Assembly (NCBI GenBank): GCA_026134085.1
Contig: JAOQIN010000009.1
Coordinates: 1 to 45,912 of the forward strand
Reading direction: 5' to 3'
Source of the DNA: Candidatus Methanoxibalbensis ujae
GTDB taxonomy: Archaea; Halobacteriota; Syntropharchaeia; Alkanophagales; Methanospirareceae
DNA: 45,912 bases
This document shows positions 16,213 through 41,618 of this stretch, piece by piece. Each line of letters starts with the position of its first letter. Position 1 is the first letter of the stretch. The notes under the pieces were generated by a model. That model saw only the letters and a list, made by a program, of their open reading frames with translations, was not told where the DNA came from and did not search any database. The position numbers were made by a program, and so were the translations under genes.

Positions 16213-16701
16213 TCACACCATAGGCACTGTTTTTATATCTAAACTGTTGAATATTATTAGATCAGGAGTTTTATTTAATTCAATTTTAAGGGGGGTGGAT
16301 GTGCATGCGATAATCTCTTTTGGGCAGACAGAGCATGTGTATCCTTCCTTTATCACATTAATTGAGTATTTTTTACCTGTCATCAGTATTAGAGAGCACT
16401 CCCCCCTCTCATTCGTTATGCATGATCCCACACCATAGGCACTAACTTTAGCATATTGCACTGCGTTACCTTCCTCATCTACGATCTTAAATGTCTGAGT
16501 GCATAATTCTGGAGGTAGTATGAATGCTTCTCCTGTAAGAAGAGTATAAATTGCATAACCCGCTGGAATAAATGAACATAACTGCATAGCTAATCCTGCA
16601 TTTTTATTATATTTACTGATATAATCTCCTGCTATTAATAGTGCAGTTGCAGTAACTCCTGCTGCTATTGTTTCTATCTTAGGTATCATCTTAACTTCCA
16701 T
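16213..16701 (-). CDS. Membrane protein with carboxypeptidase-regulatory-like beta domain
   Basis: 162 residues from ATG 16701; a TTG at 16728 is an alternative, but the GGAGGAGG ribosome site lies between the two. Two hydrophobic helices (about 10-26 and 36-56) are followed by a beta domain, TFKIVDEEGNAVQYAKVSAYG then TNERGECSLILMTGKKYSINV, the prealbumin-like/carboxypeptidase regulatory pattern common on archaeal surface proteins. Cysteine pairs suggest disulphides. Probable envelope protein. Confidence 0.65.
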   Translation of the reverse strand: MEVKMIPKIETIAAGVTATALLIAGDYISKYNKNAGLAMQLCSFIPAGYAIYTLLTGEAFILPPELCTQTFKIVDEEGNAVQYAKVSAYGVGSCITNERGECSLILMTGKKYSINVIKEGYTCSVCPKEIIACTSTPLKIELNKTPDLIIFNSLDIKTVPMV

Positions 16702-22611: not shown

Positions 22612-23070
22612 TTATCTCACCTCCTTCATCACTTCCACTGCAACTTTCTTCGTTGCCTCTTTTACTTCGTTGATCACTTTGCTTTCATCGCGGACTCTTC
22701 GGGCGAGCGCCGCCATCATCACATGGCGGCAGTTTCTCATATACTGACCAGCGGGACAGGAGCACTCTGTTCTTCCGTTGAATAGTATTTCATATCGTCG
22801 TCGTCGGCGCCCATCTATGATCCTCTCTATGCTCACACTTTCATCGCCATGGCGAAGTCTGTAAACCGCCATGTTGGTGCCAGCGGCGATAATAACAATG
22901 TCGTCGTCGTTTAGCAAATCTCGCAGCGAGTTTAGATCAACTGACAGGTTAAACAGCACTAGGTCTATCTCATCCGCAGTCGTCCATTCGCGGCGTTCTT
23001 TCTCGTGTGGTTCGGGGGCGCCACTCCCCAAACCCTTTTTATCCATACTATCCATTCTATCAATGGACAT
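22612..23070 (-). CDS. SWIM zinc-finger protein, 152 aa
   Basis: The SWIM motif C-x-C-x(n)-C-x-H is clear: TECSCPAGQYMRNCRHVMMA near residues 110-130, after a beta region with SIERIIDGRRRRRYEI. SWIM domains bind DNA or proteins and occur in archaeal and viral proteins. ATG 23070 is preferred because GGTGAT precedes it; this leader contains a tandem TATGGTGATGC repeat and further starts upstream are possible. A 13-bp hairpin lies 30 bases before the start. Confidence 0.8.
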   Translation of the reverse strand: MSIDRMDSMDKKGLGSGAPEPHEKERREWTTADEIDLVLFNLSVDLNSLRDLLNDDDIVIIAAGTNMAVYRLRHGDESVSIERIIDGRRRRRYEILFNGRTECSCPAGQYMRNCRHVMMAALARRVRDESKVINEVKEATKKVAVEVMKEVR

Positions 23071-23099
23071 AGGCATCACCATAGCATCACCATAGCGGG

Positions 23100-23131
23100 G
23101 CTGGCGCCTCGCATGAGGGCGAGGCGTCAGC
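23100..23131 (-). promoter_or_regulatory. 13-bp hairpin in the leader of the SWIM gene
   Basis: GCTGGCGCCTCGC (23100-23112) pairs with GCGAGGCGTCAGC (23119-23131) over 13 bp with one G-T pair and a 6-base loop. On the minus strand it comes after a T-tract (23132-23146) that could terminate the upstream gene, and before the SWIM ribosome site. It may be a terminator partner or a 5' stabiliser. Confidence 0.7.
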
Positions 23132-23152
23132 AAAAAAAAAGAAAAGAAAAAT

Positions 23153-23467
23153 TCATGCATTCACTTTGATTCTCTGCTTCTCTAATTCTCTCTTTATAAT
23201 TCTCTGCAAGTGCTTAACTCGTTGTTTTTCACGATGTGTCAGATATCTCTCAACAGTAAGAGCGACTGGAAATGCAGTGAAATCAATATCTTCTCGCTCG
23301 CTGACTTGTTTTATAATTGTAGATAATTCTTTCTGTGCTCTTGCAAGTTTGCTCATATATTTTTTTCGCGCTATCTGACGCCATGCACGCGCGCACTCTC
23401 TGAACTCGTTTGAGATTTTCTGCCTCTTCTTTGCCCGCCTCAGCCTCTTTCTCCTCTCTTCCTCCAT
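23153..23467 (-). CDS. Highly basic helical protein, 104 aa
   Basis: ATG 23467 follows GGAGGTGATG; the ATG at 23482 only covers this ribosome site. The N-terminus is strongly basic (RRKRLRRAKKRQK), and most of the protein is helical with many Arg and Lys (HREKQRVKHLQRIIKREL). Such proteins usually bind nucleic acid. It is driven by the minus side of the 56-bp divergent promoter. Confidence 0.65.
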   Translation of the reverse strand: MEEERRKRLRRAKKRQKISNEFRECARAWRQIARKKYMSKLARAQKELSTIIKQVSEREDIDFTAFPVALTVERYLTHREKQRVKHLQRIIKRELEKQRIKVNA

Positions 23468-23502
23468 CCTCATCACCTCCATCCCTCTATTCTCTCCCCT
23501 AT

Positions 23503-23558
23503 TTAAAAGACTTTCGCTATTCTAAAAAATTTTTTCAATAAACGAAAAATATTTAAAG
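23503..23558. promoter_or_regulatory. Divergent promoter, copy 1 of a 56-bp repeat
   Basis: 56 bases match 24727-24782 with a single mismatch. The centre is AAAAAATTTTTT; each side carries CGAAA plus a TTTAAA TATA-like core pointing outward, so it can drive the gene at 23467 leftward and that at 23594 rightward. Flanking ribosome-site sequences are similar too, so more than the core was copied. Confidence 0.85.
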
Positions 23559-23593
23559 AGAAGGAGGGAAGAGATGAGTGGAGGTGATGCGGC

Positions 23594-24244
23594 ATGAAGA
23601 GAGTAATAAAGGACTATGAGGAGAGTGCTGTAAACCCCTCCACTCCCACTGCCTCTGCGAGGTGGTGGGACAAGGAGTGGATAGAGAGTGACAGTGAGTA
23701 TGTCATTCATACAAAGACGAAGGGCGTTGTTCATGAGTGTGCATTTACAGCAATTGAAGACAGACAAAGCGAGACAGAGAAGAGAGTAAAGAGATTACCT
23801 TTCAACCTGCCGATTATCCCTGTCTGCGAGGATGAAATAAAAGTTGTTGAGCGCGATAATATCGTTGCGATCTATCTTCCGATTGTAGATGAAAGCAGTG
23901 AGTTCTATTCATACTATCAATACAAGCGAGTGGACTACGAGGTCACTGAGGGAGAGCTCATCGCAGACATCATAGTTGAATTATACAAACATTCATGGTT
24001 CAGGGATCACAACCATGGCAGTAACAAAACAGGGACAAGGGTTCTTGTATTCAGAAAAGGCGGTGAGATCAAGATACTTGAAAGGTATCAATGGAGGGAC
24101 GATGCCTTATCCGTAAACAAAATTCTCTACGAGAATGAAGAGGGAGAGGTAGAGTCATACTACCCTCCAACGAGGGGCGGATACACAGCGATAATCAGCT
24201 ATCCTCCACTCTCGCGAGAGATTATTGAAGAATATGAAGAATAA
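23594..24244 (+). CDS. Unknown protein, 216 aa
   Basis: Starts after GTGGAGGTGATGCGGC. Mixed alpha/beta, acidic, with a histidine-rich spot (WFRDHNHGSNKTG) and many tyrosines (EFYSYYQYKRVDY). No family recognised. It is under the plus side of the duplicated divergent promoter, so it is probably coregulated with the genes at 23467, 24690 and 24817. Confidence 0.7.
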   Translation: MKRVIKDYEESAVNPSTPTASARWWDKEWIESDSEYVIHTKTKGVVHECAFTAIEDRQSETEKRVKRLPFNLPIIPVCEDEIKVVERDNIVAIYLPIVDESSEFYSYYQYKRVDYEVTEGELIADIIVELYKHSWFRDHNHGSNKTGTRVLVFRKGGEIKILERYQWRDDALSVNKILYENEEGEVESYYPPTRGGYTAIISYPPLSREIIEEYEE

Positions 24245-24348
24245 TTCTTCTTTCTTCTCTTTATATTTTTTATAAAGAATTCTTCAGTTATTAACTATAT
24301 ATAAAAAAAAGAAAAAAGAAGGGGTTATCTGTTATTCTTCTGTTATGC
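24245..24348. terminator. Convergent T-rich terminators
   Basis: TTCTTTCTTCTCTTTATATTTTTT follows the plus gene from 24245, and the run AAAAAAAAGAAAAAAG near 24303-24320 is a T-tract for the minus gene ending at 24349. No hairpin is evident. Confidence 0.5.
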
Positions 24349-24690
24349 TTATTGCTCAATTTCACCTCTCGCGAGGCTCAACAACTTCTTGTATTCTTCC
24401 CACTCCTCCTCTTCCTCTACCGTAAGCTCATCGCTCGGGTATTGGTATGCTGCGGTATATAGCGCTTCAGGTTCGCGGAGTCTGAGTGAGTGCGCTTTTA
24501 CAAATCTTCTTATGTCATCCATCGTTGACCTCTTTAGCACGTTTGTCACCCGCGTGAATGGGTGCACCCTGCCTTTCAGCAGTAAGTATTTAGGCTGGGG
24601 GTCGTATTCATAGAGATACTGATCAGAGGGAGGCGGAACGATCGCAACAATCCGCGAGGGGTCGCTCGTTTTCATAAACCATACCCTCAT
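24349..24690 (-). CDS. Unknown protein, 113 aa
   Basis: ATG 24690 follows GGAGGTGATGCAA. The protein has a beta-rich first half (VWFMKTSDPSRIVAIVPPP) and an acidic helical end (TVEEEEEWEEYKKLL). The upstream five codons resemble the leader of the gene at 23467 because the promoter region is duplicated. Function unknown. Confidence 0.65.
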   Translation of the reverse strand: MRVWFMKTSDPSRIVAIVPPPSDQYLYEYDPQPKYLLLKGRVHPFTRVTNVLKRSTMDDIRRFVKAHSLRLREPEALYTAAYQYPSDELTVEEEEEWEEYKKLLSLARGEIEQ

Positions 24691-24726
24691 TTGCATCACC
24701 TCCATCCCTCTATCCCCTCCCTCATC

Positions 24727-24782
24727 TTAAAAGACTTTCGCTATTCTAAAAAATTTTTTCAATGAACGAAAAATATTTAAAG
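24727..24782. promoter_or_regulatory. Divergent promoter, copy 2 of the 56-bp repeat
   Basis: Identical to 23503-23558 except A/G at one base. It drives the gene at 24690 leftward and the one at 24817 rightward, with the same CGAAAAATATTTAAAG element on the plus side (24767-24782). Confidence 0.85.
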
Positions 24783-24816
24783 AAGGAGAGGGAAGGAGAG
24801 AGTGGAGGTGATAACC

Positions 24817-24981
24817 ATGCAGAAGCTCAGAATTTCACGGGAGAAGAGAATATATAAAAAGGCAAGGGATTTACAGAAGAGGATAGAGAGTGAAATACAA
24901 ACGATTTCCATTTCACATCTGAAGCAAAAGCTCGGAGAAATGCTCAGGAAGTTGGACAAAATTCTGAAGAAAGGCATCTAA
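24817..24981 (+). CDS. Small basic helical protein, 54 aa
   Basis: Begins after GTGGAGGTGATAACC. The product is a lysine/arginine-rich helix (REKRIYKKARDLQKRIESEI, LKQKLGEMLRKLDKILKK). Possibly a nucleic-acid-binding or coiled-coil protein. It is under the plus side of promoter copy 2. Confidence 0.6.
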   Translation: MQKLRISREKRIYKKARDLQKRIESEIQTISISHLKQKLGEMLRKLDKILKKGI

Positions 24982-24982
24982 T

Positions 24983-25003
24983 AGTTTTTTGATTTTTTTC
25001 CTT
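24983..25003 (+). terminator. T-rich terminator
   Basis: AGTTTTTTGATTTTTTTCC directly follows the stop of the 54-aa gene and would end its transcript; transcripts that read through enter the hairpin pair at 25016-25052. Confidence 0.5.
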
Positions 25004-25015
25004 TTTCTCCTGAAA

Positions 25016-25052
25016 GGGAGGTAGTGAATGAAGCTACCTCCCCAGGAGGTAG
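25016..25052 (+). promoter_or_regulatory. Mutually exclusive hairpins covering the ribosome site of the anti-CRISPR operon
   Basis: Three segments: GGGAGGTAG (25016-25024), CTACCTCCC (25034-25042) and GGAGGTAG (25045-25052). The middle one pairs perfectly either with the first (9 bp, 9-base loop) or with the third (8 bp, 3-base loop). The third holds the ribosome site AGGAGGT, 8 bases before the ATG at 25059. So one fold frees the site and the other hides it. This is the layout of a translational switch; no ligand-binding part is seen. Confidence 0.65.
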
Positions 25053-25058
25053 ATAGGT

Positions 25059-25319
25059 ATGGAAAAACGCAAGATGTGCGAAGATTGCGATCTTAGAAAG
25101 CGCTGGTCGGAGATAGAGAGGAAGGTCAAGGAAAATGAGGAGCTTCGTAACAAAATCGCAAAACTTCTTGAAGAAAGAGCACGAAGTCTTCAATACGCAG
25201 AAACAGTCATAGATGTCGTTGTAATCTTAGTGAATCTATTAAACGATCTTACATGTGCGCTCAAGGGAGAGAATGTGGATGAAGAAGGGGAGAAAATAAG
25301 AGGGGGGGGAAGGCAGTGA
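25059..25319 (+). CDS. Small CxxC coiled-coil protein, 86 aa
   Basis: MCEDCDLRKRW gives one CxxC pair near the start, followed by a coiled coil (EIERKVKENEELRNKIAKLL) and a hydrophobic helix (VIDVVVILVNLLNDL). First gene of a three-gene operon that includes the ring nuclease. Function unknown; may be a partner of the anti-CRISPR genes. Confidence 0.65.
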   Translation: MEKRKMCEDCDLRKRWSEIERKVKENEELRNKIAKLLEERARSLQYAETVIDVVVILVNLLNDLTCALKGENVDEEGEKIRGGGRQ

Positions 25320-25334
25320 GGGAGGTGGTGAGTG

Positions 25335-25649
25335 ATGATATATGTAATGAACAGCCCGATTTTAACCGCCTATGGCAGATATACATATGAGCGAATAGAT
25401 GTAGCGCAAGCTCGCCAACTACTAAAAAAACCGTTTGAATCAGCCATCGGACATGAAGCTACCGCTAAATTCCTAAGCAAATTGGTAGGCGTGGAGGTTC
25501 CAGTTAACAGAGTGAGCATAGCGATGCGTCCTGGCGATGTTGCGGTGATCTTCAGAGTTAAGCAGAGGTTAGAGGAAGGAAAAGTGCTTACGGAGGGGGA
25601 GCTGCGAAAAGTCCCATACGAACTCGGCCTTTTAAGGAGGGAGGAGTGA
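25335..25649 (+). CDS. acrIII-1: DUF1874 / AcrIII-1 viral ring nuclease (anti-CRISPR)
   Basis: 104 residues from ATG 25335, preceded by GGGAGGTGGTG. It carries the whole family pattern: an N-terminal MNSPILTAYG, SAIGHEATAKFLSKLVGV with the catalytic His (H40), VPVNRVSIAM, GDVAVIFRV and RLEEGKVLTEGEL, then YELGLL. AcrIII-1 proteins cleave cyclic tetra-adenylate, the second messenger made by type III CRISPR effectors, and so switch off Csx1/Can1-type immunity. Family length is about 100-115, so this one is complete. It overlaps the following gene by one base. Confidence 0.92.
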   Translation: MIYVMNSPILTAYGRYTYERIDVAQARQLLKKPFESAIGHEATAKFLSKLVGVEVPVNRVSIAMRPGDVAVIFRVKQRLEEGKVLTEGELRKVPYELGLLRREE

Positions 25650-25942
25650 TGGCAGTAATAGTAGATAAGGGGAAGAGAGCGGTGGATTTAAAACATGCAC
25701 TAACACTGAGGATTGACGGAGACTATCTGATATGCGACTTAGGCGAGAGAGTGGAACTATTCGCTATACAAGAGGATACCGATGAGGCAAGCCTTATATT
25801 TTATCTCGCTCAGGTTAAGCACAGGGATATAGTGGTTCCATACGAGGAGCTGCTGAAAGACTGCCAGCGGAGAGAGGACAAAGTAAAGCAGTTGGAAGAG
25901 GAGGTTAAGAGGTTGCGCGAGGAACTAAAGCGATATAAATAA
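25649..25942 (+). CDS. Unknown protein with C-terminal coiled coil, 97 aa
   Basis: ATG 25649 overlaps the stop of the ring-nuclease gene (TGATG), so the two are coupled. The first half is a small beta domain (LRIDGDYLICDLGERVELF, FYLAQVKHRDIVVPY), and the last 35 residues form a coiled coil (DKVKQLEEEVKRLREELK). Coupling suggests a role next to the ring nuclease, but none is known. Confidence 0.65.
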   Translation: MAVIVDKGKRAVDLKHALTLRIDGDYLICDLGERVELFAIQEDTDEASLIFYLAQVKHRDIVVPYEELLKDCQRREDKVKQLEEEVKRLREELKRYK

Positions 25943-26488: not shown

Positions 26489-27442
26489 CTATCTCTCCGC
26501 CCCGAAACCCCCCAATGTTTTTTGTAAAATCCTTCTCCCTCTGTTTGTTAAAGAACGCCCTTTTGTAGTAATTTTCAGAAACCCTTTCTCAAGTAAGATA
26601 GGTTCTATATCTTTTGTTACTGTATTTTCACTAAGATTCAACATACTACTTAATGCTTTAAGAGAGAGTGTGCCGTATTTATATAACTTTTTCATGTATG
26701 ATATATGTATATCATCAAGTCCCTGGGCATATTGGAATGTTTTAAGGGCGTTTACTACAATATCATAACTAAGTTTTTCTGCGTCTTGAGTTATTGCATA
26801 ATCGCATGCGAATTTAAGCAGAGAGATGGCGTCGCGAGGATTTTGAGCATGATAAGCTATAAGTTCAAGTGCTGCATCATCGTATTCATTTTTAAATTTA
26901 TCCATAATTTTTTTCAACAGCATAGTTATCTCATGTTTTGAGTAATCTTGCAAATAAATTCGTAAAAATCTGCTTCTGAATGAGTTTAGAAGGCGGTGGG
27001 GGTCGGTAGTTGCGGCGACTAATGAGAAAGGAGGAATTTCCACAACAATTTCTTTCATCTTATTATTTTTACGAATCAGTGTTGCAAATGTGAAATCTTG
27101 AAGAACAGAATTAAGCAGAGACTGTAATGCAGGTTTTAGCTCATGTATTTCATCTATGAATACTATATTATACTCTCTTATTGAGAATATTATGCGCAAC
27201 AGTTTTTCTTTTGAGAGGTCTGCGGCGTTGAATGGACCGCGCAGCTCTGTATTCAGATAAGAAGCGATACATCTTGCGATTGTTGTTTTACCTGTTCCTC
27301 GTGCGCCCAGTAACAAGATATGGGGGGGATTTGTGCCAGTCCGCGCAGCAGCACTAAGTGTTGTTAAAATTTTCTTTTTAATTACCTCTTGTCCGACCAC
27401 ATCATCAAAGGAAGATGGTTGCCAATCTGTTATACGATACAT
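26489..27442 (-). CDS. RuvB-like AAA+ ATPase (branch migration/clamp-loader type)
   Basis: 317 residues from ATG 27442. FDDVVGQEVIKKKI is the N-terminal RuvB/RFC box, GARGTGKTT the Walker A (about 46-54), IVFIDEIHELKP the Walker B, AATTDP sensor 1, and SFRSRF the arginine-finger region. The C-terminus is a winged helix (SLKALSSMLNLSENTVTKDI, then LEKGFLKITTKGR), as in bacterial RuvB. Domain order and length match RuvB better than RFC. RuvB drives Holliday-junction branch migration; archaea normally lack it, so it is of interest here. No RuvA is seen. ATG 27442 is supported by a TATA box 25 bases upstream. Confidence 0.88.
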   Translation of the reverse strand: MYRITDWQPSSFDDVVGQEVIKKKILTTLSAAARTGTNPPHILLLGARGTGKTTIARCIASYLNTELRGPFNAADLSKEKLLRIIFSIREYNIVFIDEIHELKPALQSLLNSVLQDFTFATLIRKNNKMKEIVVEIPPFSLVAATTDPHRLLNSFRSRFLRIYLQDYSKHEITMLLKKIMDKFKNEYDDAALELIAYHAQNPRDAISLLKFACDYAITQDAEKLSYDIVVNALKTFQYAQGLDDIHISYMKKLYKYGTLSLKALSSMLNLSENTVTKDIEPILLEKGFLKITTKGRSLTNRGRRILQKTLGGFGAER

Positions 27443-27473
27443 ATTTTTATTTAGCACACTTATGATATATTAA
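27443..27473. promoter_or_regulatory. Overlapping divergent promoters, both leaderless
   Basis: The minus-strand TATA region (ATTTAATATATCATAAG, 27459-27475) lies over the start of the plus gene, and the plus-strand TATA region (ATATTTTTATTTAG, about 27440-27453) lies over the start of the minus gene. Each is about 25 bases from its own start codon, leaving only 31 bases between the two genes. Confidence 0.65.
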
Positions 27474-38478: not shown

Positions 38479-39222
38479 ATGGAGTGGGAAGATTTTATCC
38501 GTAAAGGGTTTGAAGATGCTGCTATAAAATACTCTCTCAACTGGAACAGAAAGGAAGACCGCAAACTTTTTCTTGAGTGGTTAAATACATGTGATGCGAG
38601 AGGTGGTTATCCTCTCCTGCGCACCTCCTATGGAGGGAAAAAGTTTAAGAGAAATCGTGTGTTTGGAGTCTGTTACGGAGGAGAGCGCTTAGATAAATAC
38701 ACATATCCAATTTTAGGATTGGGGGAGTGTGTATGGATTGAGAATGTCCCCCAACATGTAATTAAAAGAATAGAAGAAGAGACAGATTCCTATGAATGGT
38801 TGAAAAAACTGCTTGATAACCCTGGAAATCCTGGAGGTGGAGAGGGAATGAGAAAAACAACAGAAGTCCTACGAAAGATCGCAGAGAGAATTAGACCAGA
38901 TGTAGTTCAGCTGACTTCTTCTTTAAAAAATGTGATAGAGGCTCATGAGGAAGCATTAATGACACTCGGAGAGGATATAGATTCTCTTAGAGATGATGTT
39001 GCAGAGCTGAAAAAAGATGTGCATGACTTGAAAGAAGAACTAAAAAAGGAAACTGATTACGAGAAATTAAAAAGGAAGATAGAGGCGATAAAAAGAGATC
39101 ACAAAAATATAGATGAACTCTCAAAAATTATGGCAGATCTGGCAAAAGGTCGTTATGATGTGACAGAATCAGAGAAAAGAGTGTTGATGGATTTGATAAG
39201 AGAAACAATGATGAAAATATAG
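38479..39222 (+). CDS. Coiled-coil protein sharing a module with the PCNA-like protein
   Basis: The N-terminal 110 residues form a mixed domain (NTCDARGGYPLLRTSYGG, then VFGVCYGGERLDKYTYP). After a Gly/Pro linker (DNPGNPGGGEGM) comes a module from about residue 128: LRKIAERIRPDVVQLTSSLK and a coiled coil (DIDSLRDDVAELKKDVHDL). This is homologous to residues near 425-480 of the clamp-like protein at 39420. Shared modules suggest that the two proteins interact or bind a common partner. Confidence 0.7.
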   Translation: MEWEDFIRKGFEDAAIKYSLNWNRKEDRKLFLEWLNTCDARGGYPLLRTSYGGKKFKRNRVFGVCYGGERLDKYTYPILGLGECVWIENVPQHVIKRIEEETDSYEWLKKLLDNPGNPGGGEGMRKTTEVLRKIAERIRPDVVQLTSSLKNVIEAHEEALMTLGEDIDSLRDDVAELKKDVHDLKEELKKETDYEKLKRKIEAIKRDHKNIDELSKIMADLAKGRYDVTESEKRVLMDLIRETMMKI

Positions 39223-39234
39223 GAGGGAGGTGCT

Positions 39235-39417
39235 ATGAAAATATTGATTGACTGGTTCAAATATGAGTCAAAACTAAAAGATTTGAGTGATTTGGTGAAA
39301 TACGCAAAGTCAGCACATTTGGACGGAAACACAGGCATTTTGACAATTTATGAGCCTGACGCTTTTATTATCGGAGAGTTGAGGAGGCGCAAGATTAAAT
39401 ATACAAAAGTGAAGTGA
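39235..39417 (+). CDS. Small protein, 60 aa
   Basis: Starts after GGAGGGAGGTGCT. A short alpha/beta protein (ILIDWFKYESKLKDLSDLV, ILTIYEPDAFIIGEL) with a basic end. Its stop overlaps nothing but the next ATG is 2 bases on. Part of the clamp operon; function unknown. Confidence 0.6.
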   Translation: MKILIDWFKYESKLKDLSDLVKYAKSAHLDGNTGILTIYEPDAFIIGELRRRKIKYTKVK

Positions 39418-39419
39418 GT

Positions 39420-41618
39420 ATGTTTAAAGGGGTAATAAGTGTTAGGTTACTAAAAGAGATATTTGCACATTTTTCAGATGAGGCTTATGCAATAGTCAGT
39501 GACTATGTAAAACTATGCTATATTTCACCAGAATACACTTGGGGGATCTTATCTAATATAACAGCATGGAGTAAAATAGAATCAAAAGATGAATTCTTAA
39601 CAACTATCAAAGTTAAGCGCATATATCGCATTCTTCAAGCACTCAAAGGAGATATTGTTGTAGAGATAAGTAAAGAAAAAACTAAGATAATTTCAGGTAA
39701 TCTTGTATATGAAATACGAAACGAACCAGATATTGCCTCCAATAAAGAGATGATAAATAAGTTTGAAAATTTAGTATATAAAGGTATAAAACAACACCGA
39801 GCAATCTTGGCAGCAGTTCCAGCCAATCTGAAAAGATTTGCTAAAGGTAAGGATATTTTAGTCATAGGTGTGATAAATGGAGAGGGATTAATTTATGGGG
39901 ATACTGAAAAAATGGATTTAAAGGTAAAATCATATAAAGATGATGCTGTTTTTTGTATTTATGCATATAATATTGAACGGATTTTGAAGGGTACGAAGAA
40001 GGAAATCAATATTTACATAGGTAACAACACATCAGGGATTTTTGAATATCTATATGACGGTGTTAAAGTTGAAGTGATATGTGCACCTTTGGTGCCTAAT
40101 GAATCCAAACTAATTGAGATGGATTTACCAAGAAAGTTAATAGAGATGATTATAGGAGAAGTTGAAGAAGGAAGAGAGGAAGAAAAAGAGGAAAAAGAGG
40201 AAGAAAAAGAAAGAATTTCTGAAGGAGAAAGGATTATTGACATGAGTATATTATACTCAATATTTCATAAAAAATGGTGTTTATATTACAGTATTTATCC
40301 AGATCAATATGATTCAAAATATTTTGATAGTTTTGAAGAGCTTAAAGAATTTCTTAAAAAAGGTAAGGCTAAATTGTATGTAAGCAAGCAGAGAACAAAC
40401 ATTGATATAAGATGGGATCCAATAGATTTACCTGCGCCTAAATTTGAGCCAGATTCTAAATTTGAAGTCGGAGAGATAAGAATCCATCTAATTCACCCAG
40501 GATGGAGTTTGAGAGAAAAAAGATGGAACTGGTATGTGGAAATAACAGACAGAGAGACCGGGCATACAGAATATAAAAACATGAGTGAAAATGATGTAGA
40601 GATTTTACTCAAGAAAGCAAGGAAGATACCTGGGGAAAAACCTAAGATACCTGAGGAGAAACCCAAGATAGAGGAGAAACCTCCAAAATTAAAACACACG
40701 CGAGAAATTCTTAGGAGGATTGCTGAGCGAGTTCGTCCAGATGTAGCGCAACTTAGCACATCTCTTAGAGGTATTATAAACACGCATGAAGAAGCTATGA
40801 TGAAGGTAGCTGAAGAGGTTGATGAGCTTACGGATGATGTGAATAAGTTAAAAGTGGATGTATTAGGTTTAAAAGAGCGGATTAAAGGTAAGAGTATATA
40901 TGAGCTTTTAAAGGAGAAAATTGAAAGTGAACAAAATATTGATAGATTGGAAAGATTGGGGGGAGATTTACAGCTATACAAATTACCTGAAGATAAAGTT
41001 GTAGATCTGTTAAAGTTAATAGCAATAAAAGGATTAAGTATGGCAAAGAACGGGGATGAAGATAAATTAAAGAGAATACTTGATCTCCTAAAAGAGAAGG
41101 ATAAGGACACATACATAGAAATATTGAAGAAATATAAAGAAGAGAAGAGGCTTGAAGAAGAGGAGGTTGAGGAGGAAGTCCCTGTTGCTGTAAAATTTGA
41201 GAGATTGATAAGAATATTAGAAGATGCATTTAAAGAGGTTGCGAAAACATTAACAGAAGATGCAGAGCGTATGGCAAGAAAATTGGCAGATGATGTTCTG
41301 TTGAGGCGGATAACGAAAAGAGATGCTATAATTGAGATGAAGAAGCTCGCATATAAATATAAAATACACAGCTTACTTAAAAAGAAAACAAATATAACCA
41401 CTGTTAAGGTAGATGGGAAGGTTATGCCTGTTATTGAATCAGATGCAAAGCTAAGAGAATTTGAGGAATTACACAGAGAGATCAGCAGATTCTGTGATGC
41501 TGAGAATATAGATTGTGAAGATTTAGAGGAAGAGTGGAGAAAAGCATCTGATATATATATTGAAGCTGTTAATATGATAAACTCATTGCTGAAGCGAGCG
41601 GGCAGAGCGAGCAGATAA
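39420..41618 (+). CDS. PCNA-like sliding clamp fused to a long coiled-coil region
   Basis: 732 residues from ATG 39420 (MFKGVISVRLLKEIFAHF, the classic PCNA opening). The first 250 residues or so follow the PCNA pattern: KRIYRILQALKGDIVVEISK in the place of the DLxKxLKx-x-D region, ISGNLVYEIRNEP, and a second similar half (FEYLYDGVKVEVICAPLVP). After an acidic low-complexity linker comes a middle domain (YSIFHKKWCLYYSIYPDQY), a proline-rich repeat, the module shared with 38479, and then coiled coils (EKKDKDTYIEILKKYKEEK type). A normal PCNA ends near 250 residues. It may tether polymerases or the primase/helicase to DNA. Confidence 0.75.
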   Translation: MFKGVISVRLLKEIFAHFSDEAYAIVSDYVKLCYISPEYTWGILSNITAWSKIESKDEFLTTIKVKRIYRILQALKGDIVVEISKEKTKIISGNLVYEIRNEPDIASNKEMINKFENLVYKGIKQHRAILAAVPANLKRFAKGKDILVIGVINGEGLIYGDTEKMDLKVKSYKDDAVFCIYAYNIERILKGTKKEINIYIGNNTSGIFEYLYDGVKVEVICAPLVPNESKLIEMDLPRKLIEMIIGEVEEGREEEKEEKEEEKERISEGERIIDMSILYSIFHKKWCLYYSIYPDQYDSKYFDSFEELKEFLKKGKAKLYVSKQRTNIDIRWDPIDLPAPKFEPDSKFEVGEIRIHLIHPGWSLREKRWNWYVEITDRETGHTEYKNMSENDVEILLKKARKIPGEKPKIPEEKPKIEEKPPKLKHTREILRRIAERVRPDVAQLSTSLRGIINTHEEAMMKVAEEVDELTDDVNKLKVDVLGLKERIKGKSIYELLKEKIESEQNIDRLERLGGDLQLYKLPEDKVVDLLKLIAIKGLSMAKNGDEDKLKRILDLLKEKDKDTYIEILKKYKEEKRLEEEEVEEEVPVAVKFERLIRILEDAFKEVAKTLTEDAERMARKLADDVLLRRITKRDAIIEMKKLAYKYKIHSLLKKKTNITTVKVDGKVMPVIESDAKLREFEELHREISRFCDAENIDCEDLEEEWRKASDIYIEAVNMINSLLKRAGRASR

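Follow-up and report, generated by a model that had tools for sequence, protein, structure and literature searches.

The window analysed here, that is the whole stretch of DNA, covers one contig of 45,912 bases in full, taken from an archaeal assembly of 1.99 Mb. It carries a 77-bp perfect inverted terminal repeat at both ends (1-77 and 45836-45912), which points either to a linear element captured in full or to a fold-back made during assembly. The contig therefore probably represents, directly or as an assembly, a linear element resembling a virus or a plasmid. Among the ORFs scanned, none was recognised as a capsid gene. The 16S rRNA of the host matches the archaeal rRNA model, and its tail reads ATCACCTCCT.

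Several other genes of the contig deserve mention. A tRNA gene with an apparent intron (11346-11468; Rfam RF00005, 43 bits) was missed by ARAGORN, and is followed directly by a TROVE/Ro60-like gene at 11468-13060. The neighbouring sequences 38848-39321 and 39414-41618 encode paralogous proteins with 42% identity over 155 aa; the match at 38848-39321 crosses one TAG, which may be a real stop, a sign of a decayed copy, or a site of read-through. The gene at 1461-2429 encodes an OLD/GajA/AriA-like AAA ATPase (AAA_15; PADLOC profiles NsnB and AriA), a possible element-borne defence or counter-defence protein. The product of the gene at 26489-27457 is RuvB-like: it is an AAA+ protein and has a RuvB_C winged helix. 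RuvB is typically bacterial, whereas the present gene belongs to an archaeal element.

The features of the locus itself are listed in Table 1.

Table 1. Features of the acrIII-1 locus and of a second junction on the minus strand.
Feature	Sequence	Position	Strand	Remarks
Divergent promoter cassette (putative)	CGAAAAATATTTAAA (plus-strand part, 24767-24781)	24727-24812	.	90% identical over 86 nt to 23503-23588
First small gene, 54 aa		24817-24981	+	ORF; SD GGAGGTGAT 7 nt before ATG
U-rich tract after stop codon	TTTTTTGATTTTTTTCCTTTTTCTC	24985-25009	+	candidate internal archaeal terminator / aCPSF1 (FttA) site (PMC8716108, PMC10450193)
Segment A	TCTCCTG	25007-25013	+	pairs with CAGGAGG 25043-25049; directly behind U-tract
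Segment B	GGGAGGTAG	25016-25024	+	SD-like; 5 nt before possible leader ATG 25028
Segment C	CTACCTCCC	25034-25042	+	complementary to B and to D
Segment D	CAGGAGGTAG	25043-25052	+	SD of ORF 25059; D core GGAGGTAG at 25045-25052
Possible leader ORF from GTG, MNEATSPGGR		25024-25056	+	stop 2 nt before ATG 25059; predicted only
Alternative leader ORF from ATG 25028, 22 codons		25028-25093	+	predicted only
86-aa gene, CxxC motif, coiled-coil-like		25059-25319	+	ORF; SD maskable by stem; no relatives found
AcrIII-1/DUF1874 ring-nuclease-family gene		25335-25649	+	PF08960; own open SD at 25320-25331
Third gene, 97 aa, coiled-coil-like		25649-25942	+	ORF; no family
Second U-tract (23149-23132), then stem (23131-23100)	GCTGACGCCTCGC/GCGAGGCGCCAGC (stem)	23100-23149	-	between genes 23473-23153 and 23082-22612

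The earlier note spoke of an acrIII-1 operon, and this is supported: the gene at 25335-25649 matches PF08960 with 101 bits against a cut-off of 26 (E 3.5e-29). It aligns with the solved structures 2j6b (AFV3-109), 2j85 (STIV B116) and 6scf, and contains a SAIGHxATA motif whose histidine is aligned in AFV3-109 and STIV B116. Its membership of the DUF1874/AcrIII-1 family is thus well supported by sequence, with cA4 cleavage and type III CRISPR inhibition as putative functions. When expressed from its native promoter, the acrIII-1 of SIRV2 did not work as an Acr (PMC11065993), and an Acr role for the present gene should therefore not be assumed. The gene starts 15 bases past the stop codon of the 86-aa gene. 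The 54-aa protein at the head of the locus has no Pfam or NCBIfam match.

Both 86-nt cassettes (23503-23588 and 24727-24812) hold CGAAAAATATTTAAA on the plus strand, followed by an SD and a start codon. Their BRE/TATA-like sequence and their position point to a role as promoters. Each cassette has small genes in both directions, beside the acrIII-1 unit, and the pair recalls the regulatory sequences shared by early genes that have served to locate anti-defence genes in archaea (PMC11065993). Anti-defence functions are possible for the genes at 22612-25942, which are candidates for such a role.

A motif scan found no CGAAAN5TTWAA-like module on the plus strand between 24781 and 27991, and no TATA-like box was seen by eye between 24982 and 25058, other promoter types being possible. 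Because no promoter-like module lies between the 24817-24981 gene and ORF 25059, the 86-aa gene, acrIII-1 and the third gene would most simply be expressed by read-through from upstream. Such transcripts would have to pass the U-rich tract. Archaeal U-tracts serve as terminators jointly with aCPSF1, whose cuts fall downstream of the tract (PMC8716108), and internal terminators in archaeal operons give partial termination and lower downstream expression (PMC10450193). The stem described below was also considered as a classical terminator, of the kind with a hairpin followed by a run of U. This is ruled out: the T-run precedes the stem on the plus strand, and none follows it on either strand.

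The earlier note drew attention to three segments in a row, at 25016-25024, 25034-25042 and 25045-25052, and this description is exact. As it also stated, the middle segment pairs fully with either neighbour: the complementarity of B and C is 9/9 with a 9-nt loop, and that of C and D is 8/8 with a 3-nt loop. The third segment is indeed a ribosome site, D being the Shine-Dalgarno sequence of ORF 25059-25319, with AGGAGGT standing 8 nt before the ATG and fitting the host 16S tail. The hexamer ACCTCC is common to segment C and the 16S anti-SD. Segment A was overlooked in the note. The minimum-energy fold uses it as a fourth segment, and its pairing with CAGGAGG stacks onto the B:C stem, with a few bases bulged out.

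The same layout can be read at the level of DNA. Segments C and D contain a perfect dyad, CTACCTCC-3-GGAGGTAG, whose half-site centres are 11 bp apart, a one-turn spacing, with B as a third half-site; this would make it a putative target of a dimeric repressor. Acr operons elsewhere are under Aca repressors, and Aca8 is discussed at archaeal early promoters (PMC11065993). An operator is nevertheless improbable, since the dyad does not lie at a promoter and overlaps the SD, no further copy of the paired half-sites is present in the window or in 51 genomes of the family, and no HTH or RHH family was matched among the proteins of the unit.

At the level of RNA, where all energies given are computed, A, B, C and D make one stem of about -28 kcal/mol on read-through transcripts, and this stem hides the SD of ORF 25059. 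Pairing between the SD and A is predicted for all folded transcripts that contain A (24800-25330, 24980-25200, and shorter stretches). With A present, opening the SD costs 3.7-8.8 kcal/mol, varying with the stretch folded: it is 3.7-7.4 kcal/mol for stretches ending at 25120 and 8.75 for a shorter one (37 C), and the stability of the A:D part shifts in the same way. Among the 56 SD-supported starts in the window, ORF 25059 has the highest SD opening energy.

The position of the 5' end has a large effect on this prediction. Without A the opening energy is about 0.1-0.5 kcal/mol; a 5' end at 25011-25016 gives an open SD (0.5 kcal/mol) with B:C still formed. Without both A and B it is 7.5-9.4 kcal/mol, with C:D now masking the SD. 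Likewise, a 5' end beyond about 25019, or a ribosome holding B, lets C:D close the SD at a cost of 4.5-9.8 kcal/mol (37 C sweep).

These calculations bear on the mechanism put forward in the earlier note, in which B:C (on) and C:D (off) are alternative hairpins and the operon is gated by temperature, by the speed of transcription, or by an sRNA or protein. The full complementarity of C to both neighbours suits such a switch, as does the prediction that C:D forms when a ribosome or protein holds B, with an SD opening energy of about 9.7 kcal/mol. The two folds are however far from balanced. B:C has -17.4 kcal/mol against -11 to -13 for C:D, a gap of 5-6 kcal/mol, and it is made first during transcription. 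Whenever B is present, the summed pairing of C:D is about 0-0.02 at 25-80 C. Nor does one fold hide the site and the other free it, as had been proposed: with A in the transcript, the supposed 'on' fold masks the site too, through A:D. A balanced two-hairpin switch is thus very unlikely, and of the explanations considered it is the least probable. With regard to a possible RNA thermometer, the computed SD opening energy of 24985-25120 declines gradually, being 7.4 kcal/mol at 37 C, 4.8 at 60 C and 3.9 at 75 C. A search for riboswitches and other Rfam cis-elements gave no match at the gathering score, and only two chance matches far below it.

The gene affected would also not be the one proposed. 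The stem covers the SD of the first cistron only, and the acrIII-1 gene has its own SD, GGGAGGTGGTGA, which opens at 2.1 kcal/mol as compared to 9.3 for the 86-aa gene, and whose pairing with the 16S tail is the stronger of the two, at -14.9 kcal/mol as opposed to -11.8 for the SD of ORF 25059. Since this SD is both strong and open, a direct gate on acrIII-1 is not supported, and any gating by the stem would fall on the orphan 86-aa gene. The earlier reading is therefore partly supported: it was right to place a stem at a ribosome site, and wrong in the balance of the folds, in the fold said to free the site, and in the gene that is gated.

A further explanation is based on the leader ORFs. 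Ribosomes would load at B (here SD1), read a leader of 10 or 22 codons (from GTG 25024 or ATG 25028) through the stem, and re-initiate at ATG 25059. SD1 is similar to other SDs of the element (GGGAGGTRRTGA), and the stop of the GTG leader lies 2 nt before ATG 25059. However, SD1 is fully paired inside the B:C stem, and its spacing of 5 nt to ATG 25028 and 1 nt to the GTG compares poorly with the 6-10 nt seen at most strong sites. In addition, occupation of B by a ribosome is predicted to shut the main SD and not to open it. Control by a leader ORF thus appears unlikely. As regards an alternating-hairpin attenuator of the erm type, leader ORFs exist here; an occupied B closes the main SD, while a ribosome further on could open it.

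On the basis of these observations, we favour a different mechanism, to which we would give a probability of roughly 0.35. The spacer behind the 24817-24981 gene would hold an internal terminator, the U-rich tract, and after it the strong RNA stem, and the 86-aa gene and acrIII-1 would be expressed by transcripts that read through the U-tract. On this read-through RNA the A-B-C-D stem is predicted to hide the SD of the 86-aa gene, and would keep translation of the first cistron low as long as the mRNA remains long. Trimming of the 5' end behind the U-tract, for example by aCPSF1/FttA or by another nuclease, could then produce a stem-capped and translatable mRNA. With a 5' end at about 25011-25016, B:C would persist and leave the SD free; if B were missing or occupied, C:D would hide the SD instead. 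Because acrIII-1 has its own open SD, it would be affected only indirectly, through mRNA stability or polarity.

It is necessary to ask how far such a layout is expected by chance, which the earlier note had denied. For the palindrome the denial stands. Triplets of the form X/rcX/X, counted as 8-mers with gaps of at most 30 nt in simulated windows of the same composition, should turn up 0.05 times per window (3 of the 60 simulated windows contained one) and 0.001 times in the local 1.3 kb. Each of the two palindromes occurs once across 51 family genomes, both times at the present site. The 61-nt fold of -27.8 kcal/mol has a z of -4.67, was matched by none of 200 shuffles, and ranks third in strength among the hairpins of the window. 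It is also not a general host feature, which is ruled out by a comparison with 355 kb of the host assembly, where none of 161 SD-supported starts folds as strongly.

For masking of the SD alone the denial is weak. Of 1000 shuffles confined to the upstream sequence, with the SD left intact, 60 masked the SD equally well, because a pyrimidine-rich tract beside a purine-rich SD tends to pair. The perfect stem is thus unusual, and SD masking as such is only weakly so. The repetition of B and D is ordinary, since GGAGGTAG recurs in single copies at 16511, 29975 and (minus strand) 8784, and at 11 of the 48 SD-supported starts of the window another SD-like motif precedes the first by 20-60 nt or lies that far upstream of the start. 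The odd parts are the anti-SD segment C and segment A.

These figures lead to the main competitor of the read-through brake, which is nearly as likely: that the stem is inert. The spacer brings a pyrimidine-rich U-tract next to purine-rich SD-like motifs, and a short palindrome would have formed there by chance or through local templated mutation, leaving translation unaffected. This agrees with the shuffles that hide the SD and with the frequent doubling of SD-like motifs in the element. It also agrees with the existence of comparably strong stems in coding sequence, for example at 23636, and with five matches to the three-segment pattern in IMG/VR, which we rejected as related cases since they look like chance and two of them are copies of one stretch. 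Against it stand the perfect GC-rich 9-bp stem with its A:D extension, at the z value and shuffle count given above, the expectation of 0.23 GC-rich 9-bp palindromes per window, and the existence of a second junction of U-tract, stem and gene. The shuffles and the coding stems also weigh against the read-through brake, as do the variable stability of the A:D part, the second junction, whose stem covers no strong SD, and the finding of no related element that would give support from conservation or covariation.

The second junction lies on the minus strand (Table 1). Its U-tract follows the stop codon of the first gene of the other cassette, giving the same order of gene, U-tract, strong stem and next gene, and its stem is a GC-rich hairpin of 12 to 13 bp, the strongest of the window. 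Among 44 T-rich tracts, 24985-25009 and 23149-23132 have the strongest folds behind them. We estimate the chance of this coincidence at roughly 1 in 300 to 1 in 50, a figure that rests on small numbers, namely about three T-rich tracts between same-strand neighbours. The two stems differ in sequence and the minus-strand stem covers no strong SD, and therefore the feature they share is the U-tract plus stem, and not SD masking. One might generalise that such modules between genes are processing-controlled translation gates, in which uncut read-through mRNA would be silent for the next cistron and a cut by the terminator nuclease behind the U-tract would leave a stem-capped mRNA whose ribosome site is open. 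We regard this extension as doubtful.

No related element was found, by DNA or by protein, in phage records or IMG/VR, apart from the widespread DUF1874 gene. The 86-aa, 97-aa, AAA+, helicase and other element proteins gave only weak partial matches (IMG/VR, phage records, and genomes of the family and phylum). The following candidates were rejected. The one match to an element protein among the genome contigs (L029) is a false positive, caused by a coiled-coil stretch of a PAS/chemotaxis-type protein. A distant viral DUF1874 gene (L001) lacks the present leader. The similarity of a T-tract in a further sequence (G020) is explained by an SD plus ATG on the other strand. It is worth adding that a viral contig among the rejected IMG/VR pattern matches (L019, 6357-6400) has an SD, an anti-SD and an SD lined up ahead of a start codon, and that a short leader ORF runs through the three; it has no detectable relation to the present element.

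Stems that mask a ribosome site are an already known kind. The closest comparison is with the hairpins of phage T4 genes e, soc, 49 and I-TevI (PMC3014915, PMC2988022), where a stable stem hides the SD on long mRNA initiated upstream, as it does here in silico. RNA without the 5' arm has a free SD in T4, and the same is predicted here. In gene e and I-TevI, a late promoter yields mRNA without the 5' arm, whereas no promoter-like module was found here. The locus would thus resemble the e/I-TevI type in having a stem that pairs with the SD on long transcripts, with repression as a prediction of the folds, and would differ from it in the promoter for the short mRNA.

An archaeal parallel is provided by the long 5' UTRs of Methanolobus psychrophilus (PMC5378194), in which a predicted stem buries the RBS only in the longer mRNA, as here. 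In that organism the two forms come from different start sites whose use depends on temperature; at the present locus the long form would arise by putative read-through from the upstream gene. The U-tract behind the first gene would cut downstream expression by partial termination, in the same way as the internal terminators (ioTTS) of archaeal operons (PMC10450193; U-tract and aCPSF1, PMC8716108). Here a strong stem follows the U-tract; searches of the two papers by term gave no stem in that position.

In an anti-CRISPR operon, as here, a stem at a ribosome site also forms part of the Aca2 system. Aca2 reportedly binds a stem-loop at the RBS of acr mRNA and so controls it. The present case differs in that no Aca-like protein was found in the unit, and that the stem covers the gene before acr.

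If the stem works as proposed, an archaeal mobile element would possess a read-through brake of the RBS-masking type beside an anti-CRISPR ring-nuclease gene, and archaeal elements, like phage T4, may then separate transcription from translation for some of their genes by the position of the 5' end. If the stem is idle, the locus would show that a striking three-segment layout can stem from SD-like repeats beside a U-tract. Should the U-tract and stem modules prove to be gates, the termination and translation of counter-defence genes would be coupled.
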